Assembly (NCBI GenBank): GCA_905181865.1
Contig: CAJIZG010000004.1
Location: 457,501-507,651, forward strand
DNA: 50,151 nucleotides
Reading direction: 5' to 3'
DNA from: Urechidicola croceus
GTDB lineage: Bacteria; Bacteroidota; Bacteroidia; Flavobacteriales; Flavobacteriaceae
This document shows, piece by piece, positions 3,241-41,799 of this stretch. The notes beneath the pieces are model-generated. The model saw nothing but the letters and a program-made list of their open reading frames with translations, did not search any database and was not told the origin of the DNA. A program made the position numbers and the translations under genes. The stretch's first letter is position 1; each line of letters starts with the position of its first letter.

Positions 3241-3254
3241 TACAATTTTTAGTT

Positions 3255-3270
3255 GTGGTACCTCCAGGAA
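3255..3270 (-). other. tRNA-Phe 3'-end remnant, candidate att site
   Basis: Read on the minus strand, TTCCTGGAGGTACCAC matches the end of the T-arm and acceptor strand of the flavobacterial tRNA-Phe as I recall it (5' end GGTGCCT would pair with AGGTACC). No tRNA body follows, only element DNA. A tyrosine integrase gene starts 190 bp away. This is what remains on the distal side when an element integrates into a tRNA 3' end. I found no second copy of the 16-mer in the window. Confidence 0.6.
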
Positions 3271-3307
3271 GTTTTAGGTTTTACTTCATTTTATTCGTTT
3301 TTATATA

Positions 3308-3447
3308 AGTCAATGAAAGTCAATAGTATAATGACTAAATCATGATAAAATAGTATAGAGAAATCAAACGAAATAACAAGGATTTAAACCTGCGGAGCAA
3401 CCTCTCGAGCAACCGGTATTCTCGCCATATCTTAGCCTTAGTCATTA
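3308..3447. repeat. Short direct and inverted repeats next to att (candidate integrase/excisionase sites)
   Basis: Between the att remnant and the integrase start, AGTCAAT occurs at 3308-3314 and 3318-3324, one helical turn apart. A related inverted form appears as TAATGACTA near 3329-3337 and TAGTCATTA at 3439-3447. GAGCAACC occurs twice, at 3395-3402 and 3407-3414, twelve bases apart. Small repeats of this kind near att and int are typical arm-type or excisionase sites. The assignment is inferred from position only. Confidence 0.4.
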
Positions 3448-3459
3448 AATTTAAAAAAT

Positions 3460-4761
3460 ATGTTTAAGGTTTTAAGGTCAACAAAGTCGGCCGTTCGGTT
3501 TAGTTTGAAACATTCAAAAAAGTATCTATTAGAAAATAGATGCCAAGAAAGTTTAATTGTATTGTGGTTCTCCTTTGGAGGTGCAGATAAAAGGGTTAGT
3601 TATTCTACAGGATATTCTGTTTCTTATGCAGATTGGGACTACCAAAAACAACGCATTAAAACCAACAAATCAAGGGTTATTAATTCTCACACTGTAAATA
3701 ATTACTTGAACAAGTTGGACACAGAATTAATGAATCAATACAGTCGATTTGTTGATGAAGAAATACCAATCACAAAAGAATTAATAAAGGAAACTCTTGA
3801 TATAATTTCAGGGAAATTAGTTCCAGTTGAAAAAGAAGAAATAGTTCCTGTTGATTTTTTTAAGTTCTCAGAAAACTATCTCAACCAAAAGAAAGATAGA
3901 ATAGAGAAACCAACATTTACTTTGTATAAAGGAACATTAACAAAATTGAAGAAATATGCACGAATAAGAAAAGTTACAGTTGATTTTAGTTCGTTTAACA
4001 AATCCTTTTTAGATGATTTCAGAGGATTTTTAGAGACTAAAGAGAATCTTGCTTTAAACACAGTGTCAAAACACTTTAAAAACCTTAAAATGTTTGTGAT
4101 TGAAGCCAAGAACCAAGGTCTTATATTGAATCCACCTTTAAAATATTTTAAAGTGTCAACAGAGGAAACCACCAAAATTTATTTAAACGATTCTGAAATT
4201 GAAAAAATGTTGAAATTGGATCTGTCTTATAACAAGAGATTGGAGTTGTCCCGAGATAAATTCCTTATGGGGTGTTACACTGGTCAGAGGGTGAGTGACT
4301 ATAATTCAATTACATTAGACAACATTGTTGATATTGATGGATTAGAGTGTTTTAGAATCAAACAAAGTAAGACCAAGAACATTGTAGATTGTCCGATAAC
4401 ATTGGAGATACGAGAGATTATGGCACGATACAATAATCAACCCCCACCATACCTTTATGATACCGATATAAATGAAAATATTAAGATTGTGGGAAGGGTA
4501 TTAGGATTTAATGAGGTTATAAAAACAGAAATTACTAAAGGAGGGAAGTTAGTGAAGAGAAACAAACTCAAATGGGAGATGATTGAAACACACACTGGTC
4601 GAAGAAGTTTCTGTACCAATAAGTATAAAAAAGGAATGCCATCTTTATTCATCATGCATATTTCTGGTCATAAATCGGAACGAGAATTTCTAAAATATAT
4701 TAGAGATCGGGGAGAAGATCGAACCAAACATATTGTTGATCAAGGGTATTTCAACATATAG
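3460..4761 (+). CDS. Tyrosine recombinase / integrase
   Basis: 433 aa. The N-terminal third carries an arm-binding-like segment (SYADWDYQKQRIKTN). A SAM-like core-binding domain follows at about 130-230 (FFKFSENYLNQKKDRI). The C-terminal catalytic domain shows the full set: Arg277 in GCYTGQRVSD, His378 and Arg381 in HTGRRSF, His404 in ISGHKSE and the nucleophile Tyr413 in FLKYIRD. It should integrate and excise the element at the tRNA-Phe-like att site 190 bp upstream. It is the first gene of the element; the next gene on the strand is the serine recombinase after a 446-bp structured gap. A member of the Bacteroidota integrase group with this architecture; no truncation seen. Confidence 0.93.
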   Translation: MFKVLRSTKSAVRFSLKHSKKYLLENRCQESLIVLWFSFGGADKRVSYSTGYSVSYADWDYQKQRIKTNKSRVINSHTVNNYLNKLDTELMNQYSRFVDEEIPITKELIKETLDIISGKLVPVEKEEIVPVDFFKFSENYLNQKKDRIEKPTFTLYKGTLTKLKKYARIRKVTVDFSSFNKSFLDDFRGFLETKENLALNTVSKHFKNLKMFVIEAKNQGLILNPPLKYFKVSTEETTKIYLNDSEIEKMLKLDLSYNKRLELSRDKFLMGCYTGQRVSDYNSITLDNIVDIDGLECFRIKQSKTKNIVDCPITLEIREIMARYNNQPPPYLYDTDINENIKIVGRVLGFNEVIKTEITKGGKLVKRNKLKWEMIETHTGRRSFCTNKYKKGMPSLFIMHISGHKSEREFLKYIRDRGEDRTKHIVDQGYFNI

Positions 4762-4960
4762 ACTATTGTAAGTTAGATACCTACCCTATGGTCAAAATTC
4801 TGGAAAAACTACTGCAGGAGTAAAACTGATTTTTTTAGAGAAAATTGAAAAAAATTTATTTTTACTTTTAGTGAGATACACCCCCTGATCAATTTTTTCT
4901 GAAAATATTTTTCTCGCGACTCTGAGAGGGTATTTTGATTCATATATATGTATATATTAA

Positions 4961-5108
4961 GGCAGGATGTCCGGCAGGAGTTCCTGCAGGGAGGGGGACC
5001 CCACATTCAAAATCAATGTGCGAGTAACAATAATTCTGATCACCACTGTGACGGTGATCCTTCATGAATTATTATCCGCACACAAAAAGTGTCTCAAAAC
5101 AATTATTG
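4961..5108. other. Structured intergenic region with nested hairpin (candidate origin, oriT or structured RNA)
   Basis: The 446-bp gap between integrase and serine recombinase holds unusually ordered DNA. GGCAGGA repeats at 4961-4967 and 4973-4979 and is answered by TCCTGC at 4982-4987, in a GC-rich patch unlike its surroundings. A three-tier stem follows: GTGCG 5018-5022 with CGCAC 5077-5081, AATAATTC 5029-5036 with GAATTATT 5066-5073, and GATCACC 5038-5044 with GGTGATC 5053-5059 around an 8-nt loop. CAATAATT 5028-5035 can instead pair with AATTATTG at 5101-5108, giving an alternative fold. No ORF with family features fits here. An origin, transfer origin or regulatory RNA are all possible. 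Confidence 0.5.
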
Positions 5109-5162
5109 TAGCAAAAATTTAGCATTTATTATTCCGGTACCCCGATAATCCGCTGTATTATA

Positions 5163-5204
5163 GCCTCATAGAAACCCAAAGGATTATAATGATTAAAATG
5201 AGGC
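5163..5204. promoter_or_regulatory. Inverted repeat directly upstream of the serine recombinase
   Basis: GCCTCAT at 5163-5169 is mirrored by ATGAGGC at 5198-5204, ending three bases before the recombinase ATG at 5208. The 28-bp spacing between arms would suit a dimeric recombinase subsite or an autoregulatory operator. Only the repeat itself is seen; the role is inferred. Confidence 0.4.
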
Positions 5205-5207
5205 ACT

Positions 5208-5840
5208 ATGATAAACGCAGTTATTTACTCAAGAGTTAGTTCTGAGTCAGAGCGACAAGACACTCAAAGACAAACCACAGAATTAAAACAATATGCCAGT
5301 CGAATGGGATATAATATTGTCGAAGTTTATGAGGAAAAGGTTAGTGGATTTAAAAAGAATGAACTAAGACCAATTTTTTCTAAAATGTTAGAAGATATTA
5401 AAACTAATGAAATTGATAAGGTGTTAGTTTGGGAACTTAGTCGAATTGGAAGATCAGTTCTTAATTCCCTTCAAAATATTCAAATCCTACATGATTTAAA
5501 AGTTGGAATCTATATTAAGAATTTCAACTTAGAAACATTAAATGACGATAAGACTCCTAATAACCTATCCATGTTCATGGTCCAAATATTGTTTGCGGTT
5601 GCAAGTATGGAAAGTAAGATGACGCTATCGAGATTACAATCAGGATACAGAAACCACATTAAGAAATATGGTTCCAAAAGCGTTGGAAGAAAAAAAGGAA
5701 ATACAGATAGTGATGATACAATTCTTGAAAGACATTCGGATGTAGTTAAACTTATTAAAAGGAATATTTCCATCCGAAATATAGCAGCTATCACTAATAA
5801 ATCTACAAACACAATTTTAAAAGTTAAGAAATTGCTGTAA
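5208..5840 (+). CDS. Serine recombinase (small resolvase/invertase type)
   Basis: 210 aa, the usual size for a resolvase/invertase. The catalytic motif is YSRVSS with nucleophile Ser11 and Arg9. Downstream come the conserved LSRIGRS segment near 78-84, the E-helix region (MFMVQILFAVASMESKMT), and a C-terminal helix-turn-helix (NISIRNIAAITNKSTNTI). It cuts and rejoins DNA through a phosphoserine link, probably resolving dimers or inverting a segment within the element. The stop codon overlaps the ATG of the next gene by one base, so the two are translationally coupled. An inverted repeat lies just upstream. Confidence 0.92.
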   Translation: MINAVIYSRVSSESERQDTQRQTTELKQYASRMGYNIVEVYEEKVSGFKKNELRPIFSKMLEDIKTNEIDKVLVWELSRIGRSVLNSLQNIQILHDLKVGIYIKNFNLETLNDDKTPNNLSMFMVQILFAVASMESKMTLSRLQSGYRNHIKKYGSKSVGRKKGNTDSDDTILERHSDVVKLIKRNISIRNIAAITNKSTNTILKVKKLL

Positions 5841-6289
5841 TGGATACCTTTTTCACGATCTACTTCATTGTTGTTGGGGGATTACTCATATTAAATGTAA
5901 TTTATAAACTGATTATATTTTTGAAAGGTGATGTCGACGATTGGCAAAGAGAACTCTCAAATGATGTGTTAGATTGGTGCCTGCAGTTGTATCCAATTCG
6001 GAAACAAAAACCATTAATAACTTTAGTGGAAACTAATTCAAAATTTAAAGGAGAATATTGTTTTGATACCAATACTATTATAATATACCGGTCAAACAAT
6101 GTATTACGTATAGATATGATTAAAACAGTTGTGCATGAATTTTTTCACTATTATTTAATTACCTCCCACACCAAAAATAATCTGTATCAAAAACAATTAG
6201 AACATTATGGATATGAGAATCACCCGCAAGAAATTATTTGTAATACTATGGGGAAAACACTTACAAAACTGTATTTGAAAAATAATTAA
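5840..6289 (+). CDS. Membrane-anchored zinc peptidase-like protein
   Basis: 149 aa. One N-terminal membrane segment (about residues 4-28, rich in I, V, L) is followed by a soluble domain with the gluzincin motif VVHEFFHYY: His99, Glu100 and His103 form HExxH. A downstream acidic residue in GYENHPQE could be the third zinc ligand. It resembles the short HExxH proteins found on mobile elements, but I cannot assign a substrate. It overlaps the serine recombinase stop by one base. A diverged homologue of its C-terminus survives at 35775-35866, so this peptidase is a conserved part of the element. Function beyond metallopeptidase-like is unknown. Confidence 0.65.
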   Translation: MDTFFTIYFIVVGGLLILNVIYKLIIFLKGDVDDWQRELSNDVLDWCLQLYPIRKQKPLITLVETNSKFKGEYCFDTNTIIIYRSNNVLRIDMIKTVVHEFFHYYLITSHTKNNLYQKQLEHYGYENHPQEIICNTMGKTLTKLYLKNN

Positions 6290-6291
6290 AA

Positions 6292-6319
6292 ATGGTCCTT
6301 ATTCCACAAAGGGGACCAT
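6292..6319 (+). terminator. Hairpin after the peptidase gene
   Basis: ATGGTCC (6292-6298) pairs with GGACCAT (6313-6319) immediately after the peptidase stop. There is no strong T-run, so termination efficiency is uncertain. The diverged second copy keeps a hairpin at the same place with a different sequence (35873-35894), which supports a conserved structure. Confidence 0.55.
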
Positions 6320-6429
6320 ACCCCCACTAATTACAGCAATCATATTTAGTGTAATACATTAATCAAATTTATGGATCCAAGGGTTTCAATCAAGAATTAG
6401 TAATTATTCCTGTGGGTGCTTTGTGTCTT

Positions 6430-6636
6430 TTAACTGTCAAATTTTTTACGACAAAAAAGTCCAAATTCATTCAACAGAATCAACTTTTTAGCGTCTAATT
6501 CGTGTTCGGGTAGAAGATTTAATTTTTCTTTACAGAAATCCTTTAATAACTTCATGTCTGTTGGATTAACGAATCCACAATTAATCATATAACGATTAAA
6601 ATATTCGTAGTCCAAATTATCCTTTCCTTTTAGCAT
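6430..6636 (-). CDS. Small protein of unknown function, coupled to RHH regulator
   Basis: 68 aa, not recognised. Mostly helical and charged, with FNRYMINCGFVNPTDMKLL and EHELDAKKLILLNEFGLFC as the best preserved parts when compared with the second copy (36003-36219). There the reading frame is broken by one extra base, although the protein sequence on both sides is conserved. Its ATG lies inside the end of the upstream RHH gene (20-bp overlap), so translation is probably coupled. The pairing of a small RHH protein and a second small gene resembles toxin-antitoxin layout, but no toxin family is recognisable. It could also be a partner in mobilisation or regulation. Confidence 0.6.
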   Translation of the reverse strand: MLKGKDNLDYEYFNRYMINCGFVNPTDMKLLKDFCKEKLNLLPEHELDAKKLILLNEFGLFCRKKFDS

Positions 6637-6784
6637 CGTCTTTTAGTTTTTTAAGTTTATCAATTACGGACTCCCTGATTAGATCCGAAACCGTTGTTTG
6701 TTCGTCTATGACGCAATCCATCAAATTTTTTAATTGATTTTCGGTTATTCGAACGATTACTCGTTTTGATTTATTCTCTTTCAT
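6617..6784 (-). CDS. Ribbon-helix-helix DNA-binding protein
   Basis: 55 aa. The sequence begins MKENKSKRVIVRITENQ, a beta-strand of alternating basic and hydrophobic residues. Two helices follow (LKNLMDCVID and VSDLIRESVIDKLKKL), the classic RHH/Arc-MetJ or MobC-like arrangement. A homologue of 58 aa is intact at 36200-36376. It is transcribed divergently from the 164-aa gene at 6937, and the shared intergenic space contains repeated TATGTCA sites and an inverted repeat. Autorepression and control of the divergent operon is the simplest role; antitoxin or mobilisation accessory are alternatives. No toxin is evident. Confidence 0.75.
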   Translation of the reverse strand: MKENKSKRVIVRITENQLKNLMDCVIDEQTTVSDLIRESVIDKLKKLKDDAKRKG

Positions 6785-6821
6785 CTTATTGTTTAAATAA
6801 TAAATATCATAAAATTAAAAA

Positions 6822-6932
6822 TATGTCAGACAACTTTTATTAAAAAAATGTTGATTAACCTCCTAAAATTCTTTAGGAAGTAAAAAAAAATATAAAAATA
6901 TTTGGACAAGTATATGTCATTTTATATATTTG
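6822..6932. promoter_or_regulatory. Divergent control region: promoter, TATGTCA sites and embedded inverted repeat
   Basis: A Bacteroidota-type promoter faces right: TTTG at 6901-6904, 20 nt, TATATTTG at 6925-6932. The ATG of the 164-aa gene is at 6937, so the transcript would be nearly leaderless. Inside the spacer, GACA-AGTATA-TGTC (6905-6918) is an inverted repeat well placed for a repressor. TATGTCA occurs at 6822-6828 and 6913-6919. A short stem TCCTAAA/TTTAGGA lies near 6862-6880. The block is conserved in the second copy (36414-36524), which supports function. Confidence 0.6.
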
Positions 6933-6936
6933 CCCT

Positions 6937-7431
6937 ATGAAACATTCAAAATTCGTAAATCTCGATTACAAAAGTCTTATTGATTTATTTAAAATCGATA
7001 AGTCAAAAAAGTTTATTGAGACAGAGGTTAAGATGAAAGATGGTGTCCAAAAACTGGACCATCTTAGAGCAGGTTCTAAATCTGATTTTGACGAACTTGA
7101 AGATAAATTGCATAAGGTTTTATCATATTTGGATGAAAAAAAAGAGGTTTTCAGTCAATTAGATGAATTAGTAAAAGATTTCGAGCAGCATCAGGTATTA
7201 ATGAACCCTACCATTCATGTTGCGAGGACAAAGGACAAAAAAACTGAAATTGAATATTTTACTGCTAAAACATTTTTTCCATTAACAGGTGGTAAAAGAA
7301 AAGAAGTGAAAATTCACTTGGGACGTGCGGATAATTATAATTTTGATACCCAAAATAAACAAGCTAAAAGAGATGCTACTATAAAAATGAGACAAACAAT
7401 CGCAAGAAGATTAAGAGAAGGTAGCTTATAA
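6937..7431 (+). CDS. Conserved element protein of unknown function (164 aa, copy A)
   Basis: No family recognised. The N-terminal 100 residues look helical and charged (coiled-coil-like around KSDFDELEDKLHKVLSYL and QLDELVKDFEQHQ). The C-terminus is basic, ending KRDATIKMRQTIARRLREG, which would suit nucleic-acid binding. Copy B at 36529 differs in the first 60 residues (for example VQKLDHLRA versus IHKLDPLKA) but is identical over the remainder. The gene begins a rightward operon with the ParB/methyltransferase fusion 44 bp downstream and is opposed to the RHH gene. Position between a regulator and a ParB-like gene suggests a maintenance or replication role; this is inference. Confidence 0.7.
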   Translation: MKHSKFVNLDYKSLIDLFKIDKSKKFIETEVKMKDGVQKLDHLRAGSKSDFDELEDKLHKVLSYLDEKKEVFSQLDELVKDFEQHQVLMNPTIHVARTKDKKTEIEYFTAKTFFPLTGGKRKEVKIHLGRADNYNFDTQNKQAKRDATIKMRQTIARRLREGSL

Positions 7432-7443
7432 TTTTTTTACTCT

Positions 7444-7470
7444 AAAACTATGTCACATAAATAAATTAAC
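7444..7470 (+). promoter_or_regulatory. Repeated 5' motif before the ParB/methyltransferase gene
   Basis: AAAACTATGTCA (7444-7455), 5 nt, ATAAATTAAC (7461-7470), 5 nt, ATG at 7476. The same two boxes with the same spacings precede the gene at 37068 and also the otherwise unrelated polymerase-like gene at 38601. It contains the TATGTCA site found in the promoter region of the operon. Confidence 0.55.
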
Positions 7471-7475
7471 ATATA

Positions 7476-8366
7476 ATGAAAACAGAAATTTCACCATTAA
7501 AATTAAGTGTCCATGACAGTATAATTGCCATGAAAGTAAACGTAGACCATTCATCGATGGAAGCATCTTTAAAACTATTTAGTTTTAAAGACCCAATTAA
7601 AGTTGTTGGTTTTGAAGATGAATATCAAATAATCGACGGGTATAGACGTTGGATGGCAGCTCAGTCATTGGGAATTAAAAAAGTTCCAATAGTAGTTGTT
7701 GACACATCAAACGTAAAGTTAGAATCAATTCTATCAAATTCTACTGAAGACAGAACTGCTCTTGAAATAGTTTTGTCCATTAGATGTGTTTTGGATGAAC
7801 TGGGAAGTTCACAAGGAAAAAAGAGGGAACTAATAGAAGGTTTAGAGGAGGAGGATTTAAAGGATCGTTTTACCATGGTATCAAAAATATTAGGATTAAA
7901 TCTATCTTCAGTACAACTCCGAAAATACATTACTATAGATGACTTTGATAAAGACCCATCGAATCCATTAAATGAGTCATTAATAGATAAAATTGATCTT
8001 GGTACTTTGTCAGTTTCAAGAGCTGATAGTATTGTTAAACGTCTGAAAGAAGAAAGTAAATTAAATAATGAGTTAGATACTCAACTTAAGTGTCCTATAA
8101 TTTCAAACCAATATGAGATATACAATATGAACAATAAAAAAGCATACACCAAAATTGAAGACAATTCAATAGATCTATTGTATTTCTCACCTGATTATTT
8201 AGGGATTAAGAATTATCGCAATGTTCCAAAAGAAGATCAAATTGGTGCCTTGGGTTTAAATGATTACATAGATGAATTAGTGAATCAGTCTTTACTATTA
8301 ATAAAAGACAAACTAAAAGACACGGGAGTTTGTATAATTAACATGTATAACGTCAGCAAAAAGTGA
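7476..8366 (+). pseudogene. ParB-like/DNA methyltransferase fusion, 3' end removed by IS (copy A)
   Basis: The first 90 residues form a ParB/Srx-type N-terminal domain, with the typical IIDGYRRWMAAQSLG motif and the preceding FKDPIKVVG strand. A helical linker follows. After residue 220 a methyltransferase domain begins (YEIYNMNNKKAYTKIEDNSI, then SPDY as the motif IV equivalent of SPPY). The reading frame runs into the IS at 8344 and ends 22 bases later, so the FGGSGTT-type SAM-binding part is missing. The corresponding full module in copy B (37068-38569) shows what was lost. DNA after the right IS end is not the missing half, so the locus was rearranged. Unlikely to be catalytically active. 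Confidence 0.85.
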
Positions 8367-8428
8367 ACTAATTATCACTTTAATATAAGAGATAGGTTTT
8401 ATTATTTTTACAAACCTTTAAATCTTAA

Positions 8429-8779
8429 ATGATGAAAAACAAGAAAAGTGCCAGTGCTTTAATTAGCGACTTAAAACGTAAGACAAGAAAAGCTTACAAT
8501 TCAGAAGACAAAATCAGGATTATTATTGAAGGAATGCGTGGTGAAACGACCATTGCAGAATTGTGTCGAAAAGAAAGCATCCATCAAGCTAATTACTACA
8601 AATGGTCCAAAGATTTCATGGAAGCAGGAAAGCGCAGGCTAAATGGAGATACGATGCGAGAAGCTAACACATCGGAGGTTCACGAACTCAAAGGTGAGAA
8701 TGGTACTTTAAAAGAGTTGGTTGCAGAGCTTTCTCTAGAAGTTCGGTTTCTGAAAAAAAACTTACGTGGAGACGAGTAA
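8429..8779 (+). CDS. IS3-family transposase OrfA (copy A)
   Basis: 116 aa. The helix-turn-helix is seen in ETTIAELCRKESIHQANYYK, followed by a WSKDFMEAGKRRL segment. A C-terminal leucine-zipper-like stretch (LKGENGTLKELVAELSLEV) mediates multimerisation in this family. The end of the gene contains eight A (8753-8760). The frame at A AAA AAC (8755-8761) allows a -1 shift into OrfB, as IS3 elements use to make the full transposase. Identical to the OrfA at 34379. Confidence 0.92.
   Translation: MMKNKKSASALISDLKRKTRKAYNSEDKIRIIIEGMRGETTIAELCRKESIHQANYYKWSKDFMEAGKRRLNGDTMREANTSEVHELKGENGTLKELVAELSLEVRFLKKNLRGDE
8755..8761 (+). other. Programmed -1 frameshift site joining OrfA and OrfB
   Basis: A AAA AAC fits the X XXY YYZ slippery heptamer exactly in the OrfA frame. 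The OrfB frame is open from here through its ATG at 8794 (lysine- and arginine-rich junction LTWRRVKREKY). The same site is at 34705-34711. Confidence 0.7.
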
Positions 8780-8793
8780 AAAGAGAGAAGTAT

Positions 8794-9759
8794 ATGCACT
8801 ATAGTCAATCAGAAAAGTACGAAATGATACAACTTGTTGAGCAGTCTGATCTTGGAATAAACCGAACACTCAAAGAGCTTAAAATCAATAAGACAACCTT
8901 TTATAATTGGTATAATTTATATACCCAAAAAGGCTTTGAAGGTCTAGCTCGTAAGAAATCAGAGAGAGTTGGGACGTGGAATAAGATAAATATCGTCGAT
9001 AGAGACAAAGTAGTTGAAATTGCGTTAGAAAAGCCTGAGTTATCTTCTAGGGAGGTTGCTTGGCATATTACGGATAATTACAACTATTATATCAGCGAGT
9101 CAAGTGTCTATCGGATTTTAAAGGAAAATGGATTCATATCATCGCCTTCATTTAGAATAATGAGTGCTTCGGATAGTTTTCACGATAAAACAACTGCCGT
9201 GAATCAAATGTGGCAAACTGATTTTACTTATTTCAAAATATTTGGTTGGGGTTGGTATTATTTATCAACTATTTTGGATGATTACAGTCGTTACATTGTT
9301 ACATGGAAGCTTTGTTCAACAATGAGAGCAGAAGATGTCACCAATACAATCGATGCAGCTATTGCATTTTCTGGAGTTAATGAAAAATCAATGCCTAGGT
9401 TGTTGTCAGATAATGGGTCTTGTTACATCTCACACGAGTTAGCAGACTATATCGGAGAGAAAAATATGAAACATATCAGAGGAAGACCATTACATCCTCA
9501 AAATCAGGGCAAAATTGAACGTTATCATAGATCAATGAAAAACATTGTAAAACTTGATAATTACTTTAGCCCTGGACAATTAGAAGAAAAAATGAAAGAA
9601 TTTGTTCAGTATTACAATTATGAACGCTATCATGAATCTTTGAAAAATGTAACTCCAGCAGAAGTATATTTTGGAACAGCCGAAAGAAAATTAAGAAAAC
9701 GCAAAATGACAAAAAATAGCACTTTGAAAGCTAGAAAAAAACAGTATCAAAATTTTTAA
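8794..9759 (+). CDS. IS3-family transposase OrfB, DDE integrase domain (copy A)
   Basis: 321 aa. The N-terminal HTH_21-like helices (INRTLKELKINKTTFYNWY) are followed by an rve-type catalytic core: Asp143 in QMWQTDFTYF, Asp206 in LLSDNGSCY and Glu242 in GKIERYHRS, the DD(35)E triad. It catalyses strand transfer of the IS. Residue 237 is Asn (HPQNQGK), whereas copy B has the family-typical Thr (HPQTQGK). That position is close to the catalytic Glu, so activity of this copy might differ. In the -1 frame relative to OrfA. Confidence 0.92.
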   Translation: MHYSQSEKYEMIQLVEQSDLGINRTLKELKINKTTFYNWYNLYTQKGFEGLARKKSERVGTWNKINIVDRDKVVEIALEKPELSSREVAWHITDNYNYYISESSVYRILKENGFISSPSFRIMSASDSFHDKTTAVNQMWQTDFTYFKIFGWGWYYLSTILDDYSRYIVTWKLCSTMRAEDVTNTIDAAIAFSGVNEKSMPRLLSDNGSCYISHELADYIGEKNMKHIRGRPLHPQNQGKIERYHRSMKNIVKLDNYFSPGQLEEKMKEFVQYYNYERYHESLKNVTPAEVYFGTAERKLRKRKMTKNSTLKARKKQYQNF

Positions 9760-10026
9760 CTAAATTAGCAGAAACCTCTCTTAAATTTTGAGCGAAAAAG
9801 TTCATTTTTATTTGACTACATACACGCAGTAAATACGAACAAAGAAAAAAGAATAGTATTAAATTTATAAATTATCAAGAATTGGCTATTTTGGTTTAAC
9901 TATTACGAAACTATGTAATAAAATAGATGTATCTCATAAAAAGATGTTAAATAACTTGATAGGTTGCGGTATCCAACTAATTGATTTTTGAAATATCTGA
10001 TATTTTGATCGCGACTGGAAGTCGAT

Positions 10027-33798: not shown

Positions 33799-34247
33799 TT
33801 ACGACTTAATTGTGAGTTTAAGGGTGCATCCTAATGTATCTAATTTGACCCAGCATACGGCGTTGGATACTTTATCAACAATCCCTTTAAGGCCTTTAAA
33901 ACCATAAGAAGTCAAATCTATTTCAATACCTTTTACAAGCAAAGAGACCTCGTGATCAATCACTCGAGTGTTTTCTGTAATGGCTCGTAATTGTTTTATC
34001 TCTATTTCCCTGACAATGGCTGGTTTTCGTTGTTCAAACAAATACTTGACGGTTCCGGGGATTTGAAAGACTTGATCACGGAGCTTCTCTTCGGTTTTTA
34101 CTAACACTATTTTTGGTAACAAAGGGGTAATGACTTTCTTTTTTCTGTCCTTCCATTGCTTCAAAACTACGTGTGTGGGGCTATATGCTTTTATATCCAA
34201 ATTTAGCTCGTTTATGTAATCTTGAATGATGATTTCACGCTTTGATA
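33799..34247 (-). pseudogene. UpxY/NusG-like antiterminator, 5' end removed by the IS junction
   Basis: The frame is open from the junction and reads SKREIIIQDYINELNLD, then AYSPTHVVLKQWKDRKKKVI and PLLPKIVLVKTEEKLRDQVF. IPGTVKYLFEQRKPAIVREI and a C-terminal KOW-like part (DLTSYGFKGLKGIVDKVSNA) follow. This is the NGN-KOW architecture of UpxY/LoaP/RfaH-type specialised NusG proteins, which let RNA polymerase read through long polysaccharide operons. The usual first 12-15 residues (WYVLYVKS-like) are missing because foreign DNA begins at 34246. An internal Met at 34200 could start a 133-aa product that lacks the first strand. Probably inactive, which would matter for EPS expression. Confidence 0.75.
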
Positions 34248-34293
34248 TTAATAAAAGACAAACTAAAAGACACGGGAGTTTGTATAATTAACA
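34246..34293 (+). repeat. 48-bp methyltransferase fragment attached to the left end of IS copy B
   Basis: This stretch appears identical to 8296-8343, the part of the ParB/methyltransferase gene just left of IS copy A. It joins UpxY-like sequence on its left and the IS end on its right. The IS thus brought 48 bp of its former neighbour with it, or the two loci were joined by recombination. Confidence 0.85.
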
Positions 34294-34378
34294 TGTATAA
34301 CGTCAGCAAAAAGTGAACTAATTATCACTTTAATATAAGAGATAGGTTTTATTATTTTTACAAACCTTTAAATCTTAA

Positions 34379-34729
34379 ATGATGAAAAACAAGAAAAGTG
34401 CCAGTGCTTTAATTAGCGACTTAAAACGTAAGACAAGAAAAGCTTACAATTCAGAAGACAAAATCAGGATTATTATTGAAGGAATGCGTGGTGAAACGAC
34501 CATTGCAGAATTGTGTCGAAAAGAAAGCATCCATCAAGCTAATTACTACAAATGGTCCAAAGATTTCATGGAAGCAGGAAAGCGCAGGCTAAATGGAGAT
34601 ACGATGCGAGAAGCTAACACATCGGAGGTTCACGAACTCAAAGGTGAGAATGGTACTTTAAAAGAGTTGGTTGCAGAGCTTTCTCTAGAAGTTCGGTTTC
34701 TGAAAAAAAACTTACGTGGAGACGAGTAA
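34379..34729 (+). CDS. IS3-family transposase OrfA (copy B)
   Basis: 116 aa, identical in sequence to the OrfA at 8429. HTH at ETTIAELCRKESIHQANYYK, C-terminal leucine-rich coiled coil, and the slippery A AAA AAC at 34705-34711 for -1 shifting into OrfB. Confidence 0.92.
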   Translation: MMKNKKSASALISDLKRKTRKAYNSEDKIRIIIEGMRGETTIAELCRKESIHQANYYKWSKDFMEAGKRRLNGDTMREANTSEVHELKGENGTLKELVAELSLEVRFLKKNLRGDE

Positions 34730-34743
34730 AAAGAGAGAAGTAT

Positions 34744-35709
34744 ATGCACTATAGTCAATCAGAAAAGTACGAAATGATACAACTTGTTGAGCAGTCTGAT
34801 CTTGGAATAAACCGAACACTCAAAGAGCTTAAAATCAATAAGACAACCTTTTATAATTGGTATAATTTATATACCCAAAAAGGCTTTGAAGGTCTAGCTC
34901 GTAAGAAATCAGAGAGAGTTGGGACGTGGAATAAGATAAATATCGTCGATAGAGACAAAGTAGTTGAAATTGCGTTAGAAAAGCCTGAGTTATCTTCTAG
35001 GGAGGTTGCTTGGCATATTACGGATAATTACAACTATTATATCAGCGAGTCAAGTGTCTATCGGATTTTAAAGGAAAATGGATTCATATCATCGCCTTCA
35101 TTTAGAATAATGAGTGCTTCGGATAGTTTTCACGATAAAACAACTGCCGTGAATCAAATGTGGCAAACTGATTTTACTTATTTCAAAATATTTGGTTGGG
35201 GTTGGTATTATTTATCAACTATTTTGGATGATTACAGTCGTTACATTGTTACATGGAAGCTTTGTTCAACAATGAGAGCAGAAGATGTCACCAATACAAT
35301 CGATGCAGCTATTGCATTTTCTGGAGTTAATGAAAAATCAATGCCTAGGTTGTTGTCAGATAATGGGTCTTGTTACATCTCACACGAGTTAGCAGACTAT
35401 ATCGGAGAGAAAAATATGAAACATATCAGAGGAAGACCATTACATCCTCAAACTCAGGGCAAAATTGAACGTTATCATAGATCAATGAAAAACATTGTAA
35501 AACTTGATAATTACTTTAGCCCTGGACAATTAGAAGAAAAAATGAAAGAATTTGTTCAGTATTACAATTATGAACGCTATCATGAATCTTTGAAAAATGT
35601 AACTCCAGCAGAAGTATATTTTGGAACAGCCGAAAGAAAATTAAGAAAACGCAAAATGACAAAAAATAGCACTTTGAAAGCTAGAAAAAAACAGTATCAA
35701 AATTTTTAA
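34744..35709 (+). CDS. IS3-family transposase OrfB, DDE domain (copy B)
   Basis: 321 aa with Asp143, Asp206 and Glu242 as the catalytic triad. It has HPQTQGKIERYH around the Glu, which is the consensus form; copy A has Asn in place of this Thr. This copy therefore looks like the parental or more likely active version. Confidence 0.92.
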   Translation: MHYSQSEKYEMIQLVEQSDLGINRTLKELKINKTTFYNWYNLYTQKGFEGLARKKSERVGTWNKINIVDRDKVVEIALEKPELSSREVAWHITDNYNYYISESSVYRILKENGFISSPSFRIMSASDSFHDKTTAVNQMWQTDFTYFKIFGWGWYYLSTILDDYSRYIVTWKLCSTMRAEDVTNTIDAAIAFSGVNEKSMPRLLSDNGSCYISHELADYIGEKNMKHIRGRPLHPQTQGKIERYHRSMKNIVKLDNYFSPGQLEEKMKEFVQYYNYERYHESLKNVTPAEVYFGTAERKLRKRKMTKNSTLKARKKQYQNF

Positions 35710-35774
35710 CTAAATTAGCAGAAACCTCTCTTAAATTTTGAGCGAAAAAGTTCATTTTTATTTGACTACATACA

Positions 35775-35866
35775 AATTATATGAATATGGGTATGAAAAT
35801 CACCCGCAGGAAATACTTTGCAATTCTCTCTCTAAAACACTAAGTAAGGTCTATTTGAATAAATAA
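35775..35866 (+). pseudogene. C-terminal remnant of a second zinc-peptidase gene
   Basis: From the IS boundary the frame reads YEYGYENHPQEILCNSLSKT and LSKVYLNK, then stop. The peptidase at 5840-6289 ends YGYENHPQEIICNTMGKT and LTKLYLKNN, so this is a diverged homologue. The HExxH part is gone. The difference shows the second module came from a related element, not from simple duplication of the first. Confidence 0.8.
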
Positions 35867-35872
35867 TTAAAA

Positions 35873-35894
35873 CTTCCTTTTATTTCAAAGGAAG
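35873..35894 (+). terminator. Hairpin after the peptidase remnant
   Basis: CTTCCTTT (35873-35880) pairs with AAAGGAAG (35887-35894). It is in the same position as the different hairpin at 6292-6319 in the first module, so structure is kept while sequence differs. Confidence 0.55.
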
Positions 35895-36002
35895 GTCAAT
35901 ATCCCAACCAATCGTGCCGATAAGAGTTTAATGTAATACATTGATCAAAATCAGGGATCCAACAGCTCCAATCGAGAATTAGTGATCATTCCTGTAGGTA
36001 CT

Positions 36003-36219
36003 TTATATTTTTGAACTGTGAAATTTATTACGACAAAAAGTTACCAACTCATCTAAGAAAATTACCTTTTTAGCATCTAATTCGTGTTCTTGTAGAATAT
36101 TTAATCGTTCTTTAAAAAAATCATTTAATAACTCCATATTAGATGGATTATTAAACCCACAATTGATTAAGTATTGGTTATAATACTCGTAGGTCTAATT
36201 TATTTTTTCCTTTTAGCAT
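36003..36219 (-). pseudogene. Small unknown gene, frameshifted copy B
   Basis: Homologue of the 68-aa gene at 6430-6636. After MLKGKNKLD one extra base shifts the frame; the remainder reads YEYYNQYLINCGFNNPSN, MELLNDFFKERLNIL and EHELDAKKVIFLDEL to the stop at 36003. Amino-acid changes between copies are mostly conservative, which suggests selection until recently. Its ATG overlaps the end of the RHH gene as in copy A. Confidence 0.7.
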
Positions 36220-36376
36220 CTTCTTTTATTTTATTTAATTTATCGATTACAGATTCTCTGATTAGATCTGAAGTTGTATATCTACTGTTGATTTTCGTTA
36301 TCACACAATCCATCAAATTCTTGAATTGATTTTCTGTTATCCGAACGATTACTCGTTTTGATTTTCTTTCTTTCAT
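36200..36376 (-). CDS. Ribbon-helix-helix DNA-binding protein (copy B)
   Basis: 58 aa, MKERKSKRVIVRITENQF, then NLMDCVITKINSRYTTSDLI and RESVIDKLNKIKEDAKRKK. Compared with the 55-aa copy at 6617-6784 it has a changed, three-residue-longer turn between the helices but keeps the DNA-binding strand (KRVIVRIT) exactly. The intact frame and conserved strand suggest it still binds the same operator. Divergent from the 164-aa gene, as in copy A. Confidence 0.75.
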   Translation of the reverse strand: MKERKSKRVIVRITENQFKNLMDCVITKINSRYTTSDLIRESVIDKLNKIKEDAKRKK

Positions 36377-36413
36377 ACAATGTGTTTCCTTATAAATATC
36401 ATAAAATTAAAAA

Positions 36414-36524
36414 TATGTCAGACAACTTTTATTAAAAAAATGTTGATTAACCTCCTAAAATTCTTTAGGAAGTAAAAAAAAATATAAAAATATTTGGACA
36501 AGTATATGTCATTTTATATATTTG
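36414..36524. promoter_or_regulatory. Divergent control region, copy B
   Basis: TTTG 36493-36496, 20 nt, TATATTTG 36517-36524, with ATG at 36529. TATGTCA at 36414-36420 and 36505-36511, and the GACA/TGTC inverted repeat in the spacer, are all kept as in copy A although the flanking RHH genes have diverged. This is good evidence that the elements are functional. Confidence 0.6.
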
Positions 36525-36528
36525 CCAT

Positions 36529-37023
36529 ATGAAACATTCAAAATTCATAAATCTCGATTACAAAAGTCTTATTGATTTGTTTAAAATCAATAGATCAAAA
36601 AAGTTAATGGAGACAGAAGTCAAGATGAAAGGTGGTATCCACAAACTTGACCCTCTTAAAGCTGGTTCTAAATCTGATTTTGACGAACTTGAAGATAAAT
36701 TGCAAAAGGTTTTATCATATTTGGATGAAAAAAAAGAGGTTTTCAGTCAATTAGATGAATTAGTAAAAGATTTCGAGCAGCATCAGGTATTAATGAACCC
36801 TACCATTCATGTTGCGAGGACAAAGGACAAAAAAACTGAAATTGAATATTTTACTGCTAAAACATTTTTTCCATTAACAGGTGGTAAAAGAAAAGAAGTG
36901 AAAATTCACTTGGGACGTGCGGATAATTATAATTTTGATACCCAAAATAAACAAGCTAAAAGAGATGCTACTATAAAAATGAGACAAACAATCGCAAGAA
37001 GATTAAGAGAAGGTAGCTTATAA
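36529..37023 (+). CDS. Conserved element protein of unknown function (164 aa, copy B)
   Basis: Same length as the protein at 6937. The first 60 residues differ at about a dozen positions (INRSKKLMETE versus IDKSKKFIETE). From residue 61 on they are identical. The abrupt change marks the edge of a homogenised block. Basic C-terminus KRDATIKMRQTIARRLREG. No family recognised. Confidence 0.7.
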   Translation: MKHSKFINLDYKSLIDLFKINRSKKLMETEVKMKGGIHKLDPLKAGSKSDFDELEDKLQKVLSYLDEKKEVFSQLDELVKDFEQHQVLMNPTIHVARTKDKKTEIEYFTAKTFFPLTGGKRKEVKIHLGRADNYNFDTQNKQAKRDATIKMRQTIARRLREGSL

Positions 37024-37035
37024 TTTTTTTACTCT

Positions 37036-37062
37036 AAAACTATGTCACATAAATAAATTAAC
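37036..37062 (+). promoter_or_regulatory. Repeated 5' motif, copy B
   Basis: AAAACTATGTCA, 5 nt, ATAAATTAAC, 5 nt, then ATG 37068. Identical to 7444-7470 and closely similar to 38569-38595. Confidence 0.5.
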
Positions 37063-37067
37063 ATATA

Positions 37068-38569
37068 ATGAAAACAGAAATTTCACCATTAAAATTAAGT
37101 GTCCATGACAGTATAATTGCCATGAAAGTAAACGTAGACCATTCATCGATGGAAGCATCTTTAAAACTATTTAGTTTTAAAGACCCAATTAAAGTTGTTG
37201 GTTTTGAAGATGAATATCAAATAATCGACGGGTATAGACGTTGGATGGCAGCTCAGTCATTGGGAATTAAAAAAGTTCCAATAGTAGTTGTTGACACATC
37301 AAACGTAAAGTTAGAATCAATTCTATCAAATTCTACTGAAGACAGAACTGCTCTTGAAATAGTTTTGTCCATTAGATGTGTTTTGGATGAACTGGGAAGT
37401 TCACAAGGAAAAAAGAGGGAACTAATAGAAGGTTTAGAGGAGGAGGATTTAAAGGATCGTTTTACCATGGTATCAAAAATATTAGGATTAAATCTATCTT
37501 CAGTACAACTCCGAAAATACATTACTATAGATGACTTTGATAAAGACCCATCGAATCCATTAAATGAGTCATTAATAGATAAAATTGATCTTGGTACTTT
37601 GTCAGTTTCAAGAGCTGATAGTATTGTTAAACGTCTGAAAGAAGAAAGTAAATTAAATAATGAGTTAGATACTCAACTTAAGTGTCCTATAATTTCAAAC
37701 CAATATGAGATATACAATATGAACAATAAAAAAGCATACACCAAAATTGAAGACAATTCAATAGATCTATTGTATTTCTCACCTGATTATTTAGGGATTA
37801 AGAATTATCGCAATGTTCCAAAAGAAGATCAAATTGGTGCCTTGGGTTTAAATGATTACATAGATGAGTTGGTGAATCAGTCTTTACATTTTAATAAAAT
37901 GACAAACTAAAAGACACGGGAGTTTGTGTAATTAACATAGACGATGTAATAATCAATAATCAATCACAAGCTATTCCACAGCGAGTTATATTAAAAATGA
38001 TATCTGGTGGTGTGAAATTTATTCAGGAAGTCAAATGGGGTAAATCAAATCCAATTCCACTGTCAAATTTTAAGGGTTTTCAACCTTCAACTGAGTCTAT
38101 TCTAATCTTCGCTAAAGATGAAAAGAAATTTATTTGGAACGATTATAGAAATCTAAATCTTGAGGATCAAATAAAGTTAAAACAAACAAATAAAATAACT
38201 CACGTTGACAGTCCAAATAAGAAAATGGTTAATTTTCTAAATGACGAAAAGATTAATGACTTTTTTAAAACTTCAGTGTTCCGAAAAAATGAATTTAAAG
38301 ATATTGATCCTAACTATAAACATCAAGCACCACAAAATGAACAAATACCATTATTTTTCATTCTATTTTTCACTAAACCAGGGATGAAAGTTTGTGATTT
38401 GTATGGAGGTAGTGGAACAACTGGTGCTGCAGCTCTTAAAAACGGTAGGTCAACTGTTATGTTTGACTTAGACCCAGTAAATATAGATTTCATGGAAAAG
38501 AGATTTAAAATGATTACAGAGAGTAATTTTACAAATCAAGTTGTCAAAGAAATCATTTTTTTTGATTAA
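37068..38569 (+). pseudogene. ParB-like/DNA methyltransferase fusion, split by a frameshift (copy B)
   Basis: The first 273 residues are almost the same as copy A (ParB motif IIDGYRRWMAAQSLG; SPDY). Then CATTTTAATAAAATG replaces the CTATTAATAAAA of copy A, with a net two-base gain, giving a stop at 37910. The reading continues in another frame from about 37901: DKLKDTGVCVINIDDVIINN, VKFIQEVKWGKSNPIPLSN, ESILIFAKDEKKFIW, and the SAM-binding KVCDLYGGSGTTGAAALKNG (FxGxGTT-like) with DLDPVNIDFMEKRF. The whole would be about 500 aa: ParB nuclease-like domain plus beta-class amino-methyltransferase. An internal ATG at 37997 cannot rescue motif IV. Probably inactive unless frameshifting occurs. Confidence 0.8.
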
Positions 38570-38600: not shown

Positions 38601-40190
38601 ATGAAATTAACTATTCCGAGTTCGATAATTAAAGTGGATTTGAGTCAATACGTAACGGGAAGACCACAGCGTAAGAAATCCATTTGTGATGCTGTTTATT
38701 ATGTCGTGTCTTTATTAACCCCTCCTTTTTTTAATTCTTTAGATTATCAGTATATGAGAGGTTTTAAACCTCTTTCAAGTAAGGATTTAAATAGAATGAC
38801 ACGTAATAGATTTAATGAGGTTAAAACCATTCTATTGGACTCAAATTTGACCGAAAATGGTTCTATTCTTTTATCAGATAATACATCTATCGCAGGAATT
38901 AAACATACTGGTTATAAACTCAATCAATGGGCACTCGAGAAAACCGATTTTGTTGAAGTTGAAATCGATGAAAAGTATGACACTCGAAAAGAAAAACTTA
39001 AAAATGAATGGGAATTGGACATGAAATGTTTTGATGACAGATTCATTCACATCAAAGAGGCTATGGATCAATTTCAAATTACCATAGATGCAGCAGCTGC
39101 TGAAAATTACCTGAAAGAATTGAAAAAAAGGGTGTTGTCAAAGGTGGTAAAGGAGAATAAGACTCGAGTGAAGCAATACTTCAATAAATTACATAAAGTT
39201 ATTGAAAATATCGAAAAGGGGGAATTGAACTATTCTGTTTCGATGAGCAATCATAGAGTCAATTCGGTATTCACTTCGATGAAGAGGGAATTACGATATT
39301 TTCTTAGAACAAATGGAGAACAAATGGTTGAAGTAGATATAACTACCTCGCATCCATTTACTCTTGCTACCATTCTCACTGAGAAATTTTTTAAGGAGAC
39401 TAATCTTGGTTACAATCTTCATTCTCTATTTCCACAATTTTACAAATCCTTTAAGTACTCCTGTGAAGCTATGGAGTATCAAGATTTTTTAAAAAAATTT
39501 GCTGGACATATGGTTATAGAGTCTAATGTTATTAATGATAACTATATATCATATTTAACATATCAAGGTAATGTATTATATAATATAAAATATCCATTAC
39601 TGGATACATTCATATCATATATGTGTGGCAGGTTTTGGAGAAAAAGAGGAATCCAAAAATACAGGTCATTGAACTTCAAAAAAGACATTTATGAGTCAAT
39701 TGGAAAGGATATTGGGATGAGCCGAGAAAAGGTAAAAGACCAATTTAAACTCTACATCAATTTTTCAGACAAAAACAGGAGAGTCAATGTAGAACTCATC
39801 AAACACCTCGAGAGACAATTTAAAGAGGTGAGTAAACTTGTTCAATTCCTGTCCAATATGAATCACTTCAAAAGTCCATTTTCATATCTAATCCAACGGT
39901 GTGAGTCCTATTTATTTTTGAGGCATGCTTGTCTGGAGTTGAGTAAAAATAATATCCCATACATCACCATTCACGATAGCGTATTGTGTCAAAAAGAGAA
40001 GATGTATGAGGTGCAATATCTATTGACGGACTCAATAATTAAACAAACGGGATTAACTCCTGGAATCAAGTTCAAAGAATTGGAGGATCCTTTTCCATTA
40101 TTGGATGAAGCAGCAGCAAAAATAGTAGAGTCAATTAATTATAAAAAAAATGATAAGATCATGATAAGTGAAGTTTTAAATAAATATTAA
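38601..40190 (+). CDS. Putative replication polymerase with A-family/T7-like palm motifs
   Basis: 529 aa, no family named with certainty. The C-terminal 300 residues contain, in the right order, motifs like those of PolA/T7-type polymerases. Motif A-like is GEQMVEVDITTSHPFTLATI with Asp246. Motif B-like is MSREKVKDQFKLYINF with Arg375, Lys377/379 and Tyr385. YLIQRCESYLFLRHACLEL around 429-447 resembles the helix before motif C. IPYITIHDSVLCQKEKM has His459-Asp460 as motif C. The N-terminal 230 residues are helical and charged, without exonuclease motifs. It replaces a normal Rep/primase in this element, so replication initiation or lagging-strand priming is a reasonable guess. It is preceded by the repeated 5' motif and followed closely by a DNA methyltransferase. 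Confidence 0.5.
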   Translation: MKLTIPSSIIKVDLSQYVTGRPQRKKSICDAVYYVVSLLTPPFFNSLDYQYMRGFKPLSSKDLNRMTRNRFNEVKTILLDSNLTENGSILLSDNTSIAGIKHTGYKLNQWALEKTDFVEVEIDEKYDTRKEKLKNEWELDMKCFDDRFIHIKEAMDQFQITIDAAAAENYLKELKKRVLSKVVKENKTRVKQYFNKLHKVIENIEKGELNYSVSMSNHRVNSVFTSMKRELRYFLRTNGEQMVEVDITTSHPFTLATILTEKFFKETNLGYNLHSLFPQFYKSFKYSCEAMEYQDFLKKFAGHMVIESNVINDNYISYLTYQGNVLYNIKYPLLDTFISYMCGRFWRKRGIQKYRSLNFKKDIYESIGKDIGMSREKVKDQFKLYINFSDKNRRVNVELIKHLERQFKEVSKLVQFLSNMNHFKSPFSYLIQRCESYLFLRHACLELSKNNIPYITIHDSVLCQKEKMYEVQYLLTDSIIKQTGLTPGIKFKELEDPFPLLDEAAAKIVESINYKKNDKIMISEVLNKY

Positions 40191-40195: not shown

Positions 40196-40993
40196 ATGAA
40201 AAAAAATATAATATATAACGAGAATTGTAATGAAACTTTTACCAAGATAGAGGATAAATCTATCGATGGAGTAATTACATCACCACCATACAATATCAAT
40301 ATTAAGAGAAGCGATTGTTACTACAACAATGGATATTCTGAATTAGACGGACTAAGTCAAAATGATTATTTGGAGGTTAGAACAAATGAATTCAAAGAAT
40401 TCTCAAGGGTCATCAAAGATGATGGAGTTATTTGCTACAATATTTCATACAGCAAAGAAAACCCGATACTTCCAACGTTATTAGTAGCTAAAATTCACGA
40501 AGAGTTGGATTTAACAATTTCTGACATTATTTCCTGGAAAAAACCACACGCTATACCTTTTCAAACTTCATCAACAAAATTGAGCAGGGTGACTGAACTT
40601 ATTTACATTTTTGTCAAAAAAGATAGATTACACACGTTTAAAACAAATAAAGAAGTAAGTAAGATTAATGAAAAAACTGGTCAAAAATTTTATAAAAACT
40701 ATGTGAATTTTATTGAAGCAAAAAATAATGATGGATATAAATGCCAACTAAAAGCATCGTATTCACAAGATTTATGTGACCAGTTGATAAATATTTACTT
40801 TTCAAAAGGTAGTTTGATCTATGATCCTTTTACAGGCATAGGAACAACTCAACTAAGCTGTATCGAAAATTTTTGTGATTTTATTGGAAGTGAAATAATA
40901 ACTGAACATTATAATATTGCCGTTGAAAGAGTGGAAGAAAAAAGAAAAGAAAAAGAAGTACAACAACTATTGAAAGACTCAAAAATTAAATAA
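40196..40993 (+). CDS. DNA amino-methyltransferase (beta-class N4/N6)
   Basis: 265 aa. Motif IV is DGVITSPPYNINIK (residues 24-37). The SAM-binding motif I is near the C-terminus, IYDPFTGIGTTQLSCI, so the order of blocks is that of the beta class. Between them lies a variable target-recognition region (IISWKKPHAIPFQTSSTKLS). It methylates adenine N6 or cytosine N4 in a specific site. No restriction endonuclease gene adjoins it, so it is an orphan enzyme that may protect the element or regulate it. It starts 5 bp after the polymerase-like stop. Confidence 0.87.
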   Translation: MKKNIIYNENCNETFTKIEDKSIDGVITSPPYNINIKRSDCYYNNGYSELDGLSQNDYLEVRTNEFKEFSRVIKDDGVICYNISYSKENPILPTLLVAKIHEELDLTISDIISWKKPHAIPFQTSSTKLSRVTELIYIFVKKDRLHTFKTNKEVSKINEKTGQKFYKNYVNFIEAKNNDGYKCQLKASYSQDLCDQLINIYFSKGSLIYDPFTGIGTTQLSCIENFCDFIGSEIITEHYNIAVERVEEKRKEKEVQQLLKDSKIK

Positions 40994-41496: not shown

Positions 41497-41799
41497 ATGG
41501 GTGAGCAAACCATACAAATATTGAATGTAACAAGACAAGAACTTCTTGAGATTATTAAGGAAGGTGTCAAATTGGAATTGAACCGACAACGATCGATGGG
41601 AAACCCTTTGAACAGGTTGTCTATAACTGGTGAAGATACTGAGTATTTAACCCGAAATGAAGTCTCTAAGGTGTTAAATGTAACTGTCCAGACATTGAAT
41701 AACTGGAGAAGAGATGGGGTCTTAAATCCACTAAAAATTGGAGGTAGGGTGTTGTACAGAAAAGAAGATGTGTGTAGTAACTCACGTTTAGTTGCTTGA
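41497..41799 (+). CDS. Excisionase-like helix-turn-helix protein
   Basis: 100 aa. The N-terminal half may be a helical dimerisation region (LEIIKEGVKLELNRQRSMGN). The C-terminal half is a MerR/excisionase-type winged helix: YLTRNEVSKVLNVTVQTLNN, WRRDGVLNPLKIGGRVLYRK, as in HTH_17 proteins common beside Bacteroidota integrases. It could bind the small repeats next to the integrase attachment site and direct excision, or regulate the element. It is the last recognisable element gene; the chimeric ORF starts 87 bp later. Confidence 0.75.
   Translation: MGEQTIQILNVTRQELLEIIKEGVKLELNRQRSMGNPLNRLSITGEDTEYLTRNEVSKVLNVTVQTLNNWRRDGVLNPLKIGGRVLYRKEDVCSNSRLVA

Follow-up and report, generated by a model that had tools for sequence, protein, structure and literature searches.

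The probable polymerase gene and its surroundings

The window (the whole stretch of DNA analysed here, 50,151 nucleotides from Urechidicola croceus) carries at 38601-40190 a gene for a 529-amino acid protein that begins with ATG and that the ORF, its AF2 model, fold matches and alignment lead us to describe as a TV-Pol-like polymerase of the family A type (see below). This gene, its parts and the other genes and element alleles given by window coordinates all lie on the + strand. As the original prediction had stated, the protein belongs to no named family: single-sequence searches gave no weighty match to Pfam (best E 0.1) or to PHROG (best E 0.014), and none to PDB sequences or NCBIfam. Phage records searched with the protein likewise gave no match. 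The segments on which that prediction was built, namely VEVDITTSHPF with Asp246, REKVKDQFKLY at 375-385, IQRCESYLFLRHACLEL and TIHDSVLCQ, are all present in the ORF. The His-Asp pair of the last segment is both present and invariant among relatives, but its numbering had slipped by one and should read His458-Asp459 rather than 459-460. No exonuclease domain was recognised, in agreement with the earlier reading.

The first 125 or so residues (38601-38975) comprise helices and short strands whose order suggests a winged helix, by secondary structure in this model and in that of a relative, L029. Helices 128-157, 164-181 and 184-205 of the model (38982-39215) form a probable thumb. The invariant Arg219 (39255-39257) precedes strand 220-222 and stands 27 residues ahead of Asp246, according to model and alignment. 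The alignment then places motif A (39327-39359), whose ribose-gate position, D+5, is His251; the fingers segment Asp362-Ile363-Tyr364 (39684-39692); and motif B (39723-39755), with R375xxxK379, which is also supported by profile-profile comparison. Gln432 to Glu435 (39894-39905) lie on the helix ahead of motif C, and motif C itself, TIHDS, is at 39966-39980, both from model and alignment. Four sequences of the window group, compared in six pairs, have dN/dS of 0.146-0.204, which indicates purifying selection; the gene is therefore kept for its protein.

The next gene encodes an N6/N4 DNA methyltransferase (40196-40993, Pfam), and an HTH_17 excisionase-like protein is encoded at 41497-41799 (Pfam and PHROG). 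Upstream lie a ParB-N plus DNA methylase gene (37068-38569, from Pfam and relatives), split over ORFs 37068-37910 and 37997-38569, and the gene of a 164-aa element protein with no function assigned by Pfam or neighbourhood comparison (36529-37023). The polymerase gene thus has an N6/N4-type methyltransferase gene on either side, and one of the pair includes a ParB-N domain. The left part of this element copy (35775-37938) is 92% identical to 6195-8344, a second allele of the same stretch that is cut by an IS. Beside this other half of the element, neighbourhood comparison places a tyrosine integrase (3460-4761) and a serine resolvase (5208-5840). The IS copies at 8290-9824 and 34240-35774 are 99.8% identical, and each carries the same ParB-methylase fragment of about 55 bp. 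They bracket about 24 kb, between the two alleles, with genes that by eye look like those of polysaccharide synthesis. Neither allele in the window has a whole ParB-methylase gene, each being cut or split, while intact 499-aa relatives occur elsewhere. The window copy of the polymerase gene is not within a simple intact element.

Neighbourhoods of related genes

The second copy in the same genome (L115) lies in the order 148-aa protein, 164-aa protein, 499-aa ParB-N plus methylase, polymerase, methyltransferase, a small protein that by eye looks like an HTH protein, and an integrase-like gene in two ORFs. Loci L117 and L118 have in common genes for 149-, 176-, 499- and 525-aa proteins followed by a 520-aa large serine recombinase, while at L119 the contig ends after the polymerase. 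L116 is different: a 207-aa protein and a ParB-methylase that is only 27-28% identical precede the polymerase, and proteins of 123 aa and 411 aa follow it, the latter a tyrosine integrase. Proteins of 117, 149 and 164 aa, with no function assigned, are among the element proteins.

Is the association with integrases general? Among distant relatives, an integrase profile match occurs within 8 kb at 21 of 29 genome loci and at none of 20 housekeeping polA loci (Fisher p 1.3e-7). Since both the integrase and the HTH profile derive from these very neighbourhoods, the contrast is real but the 21/29 is not an independent census. HTH profile matches lie within 8 kb at 18/29 genome loci, both integrase and HTH at 14/29, and the direct order integrase-HTH-polymerase is seen at 7/29. 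The same 20 polA loci, one of them on a shortened stretch, served as controls for both profiles and matched neither. In those element proteins that were scanned with Pfam, neither a helicase nor an SSB came to light. In the literature searched, we found no integrase-HTH-polymerase module from Bacteroidota.

Distribution and conservation of the family

The second copy in the genome of origin is 87% identical to the window gene, and four genomes of the same bacterial family have one copy each at 84-85%. In all, 22 of 397 genomes of that bacterial family match at E<=1e-3, the genome of origin counted, and a profile search of 296 genomes of the phylum found matches in 13 at E<=1e-6. A single scan of genome contigs gave 31 loci, on contigs labelled as Bacteroidota organisms. 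Scanned with the window protein, viral contigs yielded no relative; an alignment of distant members found 16 loci there and the huge-phage type 24, many of these on contigs already hit by the alignment. The sole match among plasmids searched with the window protein is a 524-aa member on a Hymenobacter plasmid, on which a replication initiation protein is annotated as well. On an uncultured Flavobacteriaceae contig (L075, 9371-10922), a close relative of the window gene is read as four separate ORFs.

Conservation was counted in 55 aligned rows from Bacteroidota and huge phages, representing 54 different proteins (L046 was entered twice with two start choices, and identical rows were merged). 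ORFs shorter than 380 aa were excluded, namely both L013 pieces, L018, the L024/L027 piece, L060, L073, four L075 pieces and alternative shorter starts; L020 is absent since it gave no local match. Arg219, Asp246, Tyr364, Lys379, Glu435, His458 and Asp459 are invariant in all 55 rows, so that the outcome named as refuting the original prediction, a lack of conservation of the two aspartates in homologues, did not arise. The column of Arg375 has R in 51 rows, K in 2 and E in 2, and column 362 has Asp in 18, the window protein (D362) among them. Position 250 (D+4) is Ser in 54 rows; position 251 (D+5) is Gln in 49, His in 4, Ile in 1 and Val in 1, and never Glu. At position 460, Ser in 49 rows, Cys in 4 and Ala in 2 give HDS, HDC and HDA, respectively. 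Members beyond the close group are 15-22% identical to the window protein (two alignments measured), and on the evidence of the alignment seven invariant columns at such identity are more than chance. In a tree, the phage rows cluster with support of 93/73 for 8 rows and 100/99 for 7, and the four window-type rows cluster with 100/100.

The family as a whole is also unnamed in the libraries used. No Pfam or NCBIfam model of weight was found in the members scanned (19 and 38), and PF00476 is absent both from the full Pfam list of 19 members and from the 25 of 31 Pfam families listed for 38 members. The nearest sign of a named library entry is one member with E 0.24 to an NCBIfam exonuclease/DNA polymerase model. 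Matches to phrog_4756 (1e-6, one member) and phrog_37657 (two members) are to groups without function. An hmmsearch of PDB sequences gave four EF-hand proteins (best E 0.019) with one profile and nothing with another. A 599-aa member (L067, 1506-3305) has a C-terminal extension beyond the polymerase domain, and this is probably the NUMOD4-HNH match mentioned below.

Predicted fold

The AF2 model of the window protein, built with 38 sequences, has pLDDT 75.7 and pTM 0.69, with pLDDT below 50 at 271-276, 278-294 and 297-333 in the fingers. Asp246 is on strand 240-247, His458-Asp459 is between strands 454-457 and 460-464, and Arg219 is between strands 211-213 and 220-222. Foldseek found 320 PDB matches at E<=10 (best E 1.0e-3, none below 1e-3); the best 50 of these, at probabilities of 0.96-1.00, are 47 family A DNA polymerase and 3 mitochondrial RNA polymerase chains. 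The model of the relative L029 (pLDDT 87.2, pTM 0.85) gave 845 PDB matches, 61 of them at E<=1e-3 with a best of 2.7e-5, and the best 50 of the 845 are all family A DNA polymerases. Superpositions are loose in the matches listed for both models (query TM-scores 0.17-0.36, rmsd mostly above 10 A), and the likeness is therefore a match of core topology rather than a close superposition. Against BFVD, 21 matches of the window model reach E<=1e-3, the best being a 409-aa viral protein (E 2e-17). Also matched are a 403-aa protein of an uncultured marine phage, annotated as "putative DNA polymerase I" (E 1.4e-12), the Barba31A phage DNA polymerase, Aeromonas phage proteins and the DNA replication protein of Zamilon virophage (E 6.5e-4), which we take to be a TV-Pol like that of Sputnik.

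The original prediction had read an A-family/T7-like palm in which motifs A, B and C follow one another, and had named structure prediction with a fold search as a way to check it; the family A matches and the predicted structure uphold the palm and the motif order. Profile comparison with the family alignment, a further suggestion, lines up motifs B and C with those of PolA and T7-type RNA polymerase (E 0.03 and 0.015, respectively), but at absolute probabilities of only 1.6-3.0%. Column-shuffled nulls scored as high in 2 of 300 trials for PolA and 1 of 299 for T7-type RNA polymerase, after 1 of 200 in a first null run for PolA; in an earlier run of the comparison, reversed controls gave 0.8 and 0.47 against 0.022 and 0.032.

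Because of the invariant residues and the fold matches of both models, the reading as a family A palm and polymerase is supported, and we predict with high confidence that the window protein is a polymerase. Might the palm fold instead have lost polymerase activity, for example in a DNA-binding initiator? The sequence is highly diverged, and RRM-only, probably inactive relatives of polymerase genes are described in comparable elements (PMC10061031). The conservation of Asp246 and Asp459 in 55/55 rows, of Lys379 in 55/55 and of Arg375 in 51/55 argues against such a loss, which we consider very improbable.

Relation to known polymerases

Iyer, Abhiman and Aravind defined the TV-Pols in 2008 as minimal polymerases that are related to family A and occur in mobile elements of bacteria, among them Bacteroidetes (PMC2579912). 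These proteins of 400-600 aa have an absolutely conserved hairpin Arg, an RRM-like palm with two Asp, fingers with RxxxK and a conserved Asp, a thumb of two antiparallel helices and no nuclease fusion. Their neighbourhoods contain a resolvase, a lambda-type integrase or a transposase, near restriction-modification operons, and a function as primase and polymerase was predicted at the time (PMC2579912). The present family has the same range of lengths, occurs in Bacteroidetes species, has restriction-modification genes nearby, and resides in mobile elements with resolvase, integrase or transposase. Arg219 is on a hairpin before the palm, the palm has its two Asp, and RxxxK follows the first palm strand (see above). 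The fingers Asp of TV-Pols would correspond to column 362, where only 18/55 rows have Asp, and the two antiparallel thumb helices to the three probable thumb helices of the model. No exonuclease was recognised here, but 1 of 38 members scanned with Pfam matches NUMOD4 and HNH_3. A D5 helicase, found with TV-Pols, was not recognised, and the N-terminal part, predicted as all-helical for a subset in PMC2579912, has strands in our model.

Given these features, we file the 529-aa protein as a probable TV-Pol, a placement made by features rather than by direct alignment to a named TV-Pol. A figure legend of PMC2579912 names Bacteroidetes species, so part of the family may be in its alignment. The notion that such a polymerase would be "possibly undescribed" thus gives way to the literature: TV-Pols have been known since 2008, one of them, CCPol, has been assayed (PMC7581432), and the family is not a new class. 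In Microcystis phage LMM01 (three of four stretches, with the last 12 kb outside), the best profile match was a short ORF at E 0.095 and is not credible.

CCPol of SCCmec is a TV-Pol shown to be a primase-polymerase, and the CCPol-MP complex makes DNA primers de novo (PMC7581432). CCPol works with a helicase and an SSB, and PolA-SSB primases have an OB-fold SSB gene between those of polymerase and helicase (PMC7581432, PMC10061031). To the knowledge of the CCPol authors in 2020, no other TV-Pol had been assayed (PMC7581432). A 2023 paper mentions one more S. aureus pair as unpublished data, and its polymerase-SSB pairs are all in Bacillota (PMC10061031). What the present family has in common with these systems is a polymerase of the family A type, lodged in an element that has a recombinase and may have restriction-modification genes. 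The gene order differs: a methyltransferase gene comes next, and among the element proteins scanned Pfam recognised no MP/SSB or helicase partner.

The divPolA2 proteins of barbaviruses and other phages provide a second comparison: about 430 aa, a palm without exonuclease, an N-terminal domain of their own and another DNA polymerase alongside (PMC11348598). In all these respects they resemble members of the family, and the Barba31A and Aeromonas phage matches in BFVD would be divPolA2. However, divPolA2 AUR84708 has motif A YDFKAFE and motif C VFDE, and against the family profile it scores no better than noise, even though motifs B and C line up. We regard divPolA2 as a parallel case with a comparable fold and other motif letters. 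A 2026 census of bacterial polymerases recognises, in the part available, the groups PolA1, PolA2, PolA3 and PolA1-like, and no group of the present kind (PMC12926913).

The active site and sugar choice

The present family shares with PolI and T7 RNA polymerase the palm, the motif order, the Arg, RxxxK and HD; it differs from both in being shorter, in its mixture of motif letters and in having no recognised exonuclease or promoter domain. How, then, is the mixture to be read? In eight T7-type RNA polymerases (one unparsed), seven have Ser at D+4 and seven have HDS, whereas 29 of 31 PolA-type sequences (30 from Bacteroidota plus one from T7) have HDE. The D+5 gate is Glu in 27 of those 31, with 4 unparsed. 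In the present family this ribose-gate Glu is replaced, mostly by Gln and in the window group by His, and judged by these letters the position is unlike that of either PolA-type or T7-type enzymes. We found no active site with the gate Glu replaced, mostly by Gln, in the literature searched.

One alternative is that the family consists of minimal single-subunit RNA polymerases, which would transcribe element or phage genes or make RNA primers. The Ser at D+4 (54/55) and HDS (49/55) point in that direction, as do the constant absence of the PolA gate Glu, the three mitochondrial RNA polymerase chains among the best 50 of 320 fold matches, and the separate DNA polymerases of huge phages that have a member. 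The distance from Arg to motif A (R219 to D246) is 24-28 aa across the family, and the RLHS-LT block within it reads more like the RLSS-PNLQN block of PolA than like T7 RNA polymerase. Moreover, the best 50 of 845 matches of the L029 model are all DNA polymerases, no further domain was recognised by Pfam, and the motif B position that is Met in 8/8 RNA polymerases is L in 15, F in 15, M in only 13, Y in 9 and I in 3 rows of the family. On balance, an RNA polymerase seems unlikely.

CCPol retains the PolI discrimination residues E710 and F762 and strongly prefers dNTPs (PMC7581432). The present family differs at both places, D+5 never being Glu and the motif B position varying as just described. 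With Gln or His at the gate, compared to Glu in CCPol, the sugar used by the family is therefore not readable from homology, and sugar choice is the point of greatest interest about it. Considering that this gate resembles neither that of PolA-type nor that of T7-type enzymes, an incorporation assay could tell how the superfamily sets its choice of sugar. A bolder proposal is that these minimal family A-type enzymes form a distinct lineage in Bacteroidota, combine letters of DNA and RNA polymerases in one active site (D-x-x-x-S-Q in motif A, HDS in motif C), start chains independently of primers with NTPs or both sugars, and act as primase for small integrative elements and huge phages of Bacteroidota. 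We put this forward as a tentative idea with the odds against it; if true, it would amount to a third biochemical state between PolI and T7 RNA polymerase.

Proposed role in the element

Our preferred reading, to which we assign a probability of about 65%, is that the gene encodes a minimal TV-Pol-like enzyme of the family A type that is competent to polymerise nucleic acid and belongs to small integrative elements of Bacteroidota. At about the same level of confidence, its most likely role would be that of replication primase-polymerase of the element. The original prediction of a replication protein for a small integrative element is plausible. Against this reading count the annotated replication initiation protein of the Hymenobacter plasmid and the failure of Pfam to show, in the element proteins scanned, the helicase and SSB with which CCPol works.

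The integrase and the excisionase-like HTH protein would excise the element, and the winged-helix-like N-terminal part would perhaps place the polymerase on element DNA, where the enzyme would start and extend synthesis. By analogy with family A enzymes in general, Asp246 and Asp459 would catalyse with two metal ions, Arg375 and Lys379 on the fingers helix would handle the nucleotide, and Arg219 would handle the template. The host helicase and replicase would probably finish the copy. A biochemical test is worthwhile, since Bacteroidota have the family fairly often, the libraries used give it no name and its gate is unusual.

Members in huge phages

A short form of the protein was detected by tblastn in LR756501 and LR756503 (735 kb), LR756502 (642 kb), LR745206 (635 kb), LR756504 (636 kb) and LR756511 (595 kb). 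Reading the ORF in two of these records gave 397 aa for LR756501 and 387 aa for LR756511. The largest phage genomes reported at the time belong to the Mahaphage clade, whose hosts are predicted to be Bacteroidetes (PMC7162821); judging by length, the 635-735 kb records should be those genomes. In the literature searched, we found no account of family members in phages of 595-735 kb that have other DNA polymerases as well. All five huge-phage records searched have another DNA polymerase, and the family member therefore need not be the replicase there. The idea of a sole replicase for a 735-kb phage was rejected: four of the five records have family B matches, and the fifth, LR756511, has polymerases of families C and A.

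An alternative is an accessory polymerase for repair, translesion synthesis or defence, carried as cargo rather than for element replication. Yutin et al. suggest that divPolA2, a comparable protein, serves in repair or makes RNA (PMC11348598). In huge phages the gene coexists with a further DNA polymerase and in one case immediately precedes a 428-aa PolA-type gene, and Type I restriction-modification genes (clusters c4, c8 and c9) occur within 8 kb in 7 of 36 loci. Nonetheless, the gene sits with integrase and HTH genes (direct order 7/29, both near 14/29), not among variable cargo, and we consider an accessory role improbable, more so than an RNA polymerase.

In LR756511 (L122), the member at 2833-3996 overlaps by four bases the downstream 428-aa PolA-type gene at 3993-5279, and the two form a tandem pair of family A-type polymerases.
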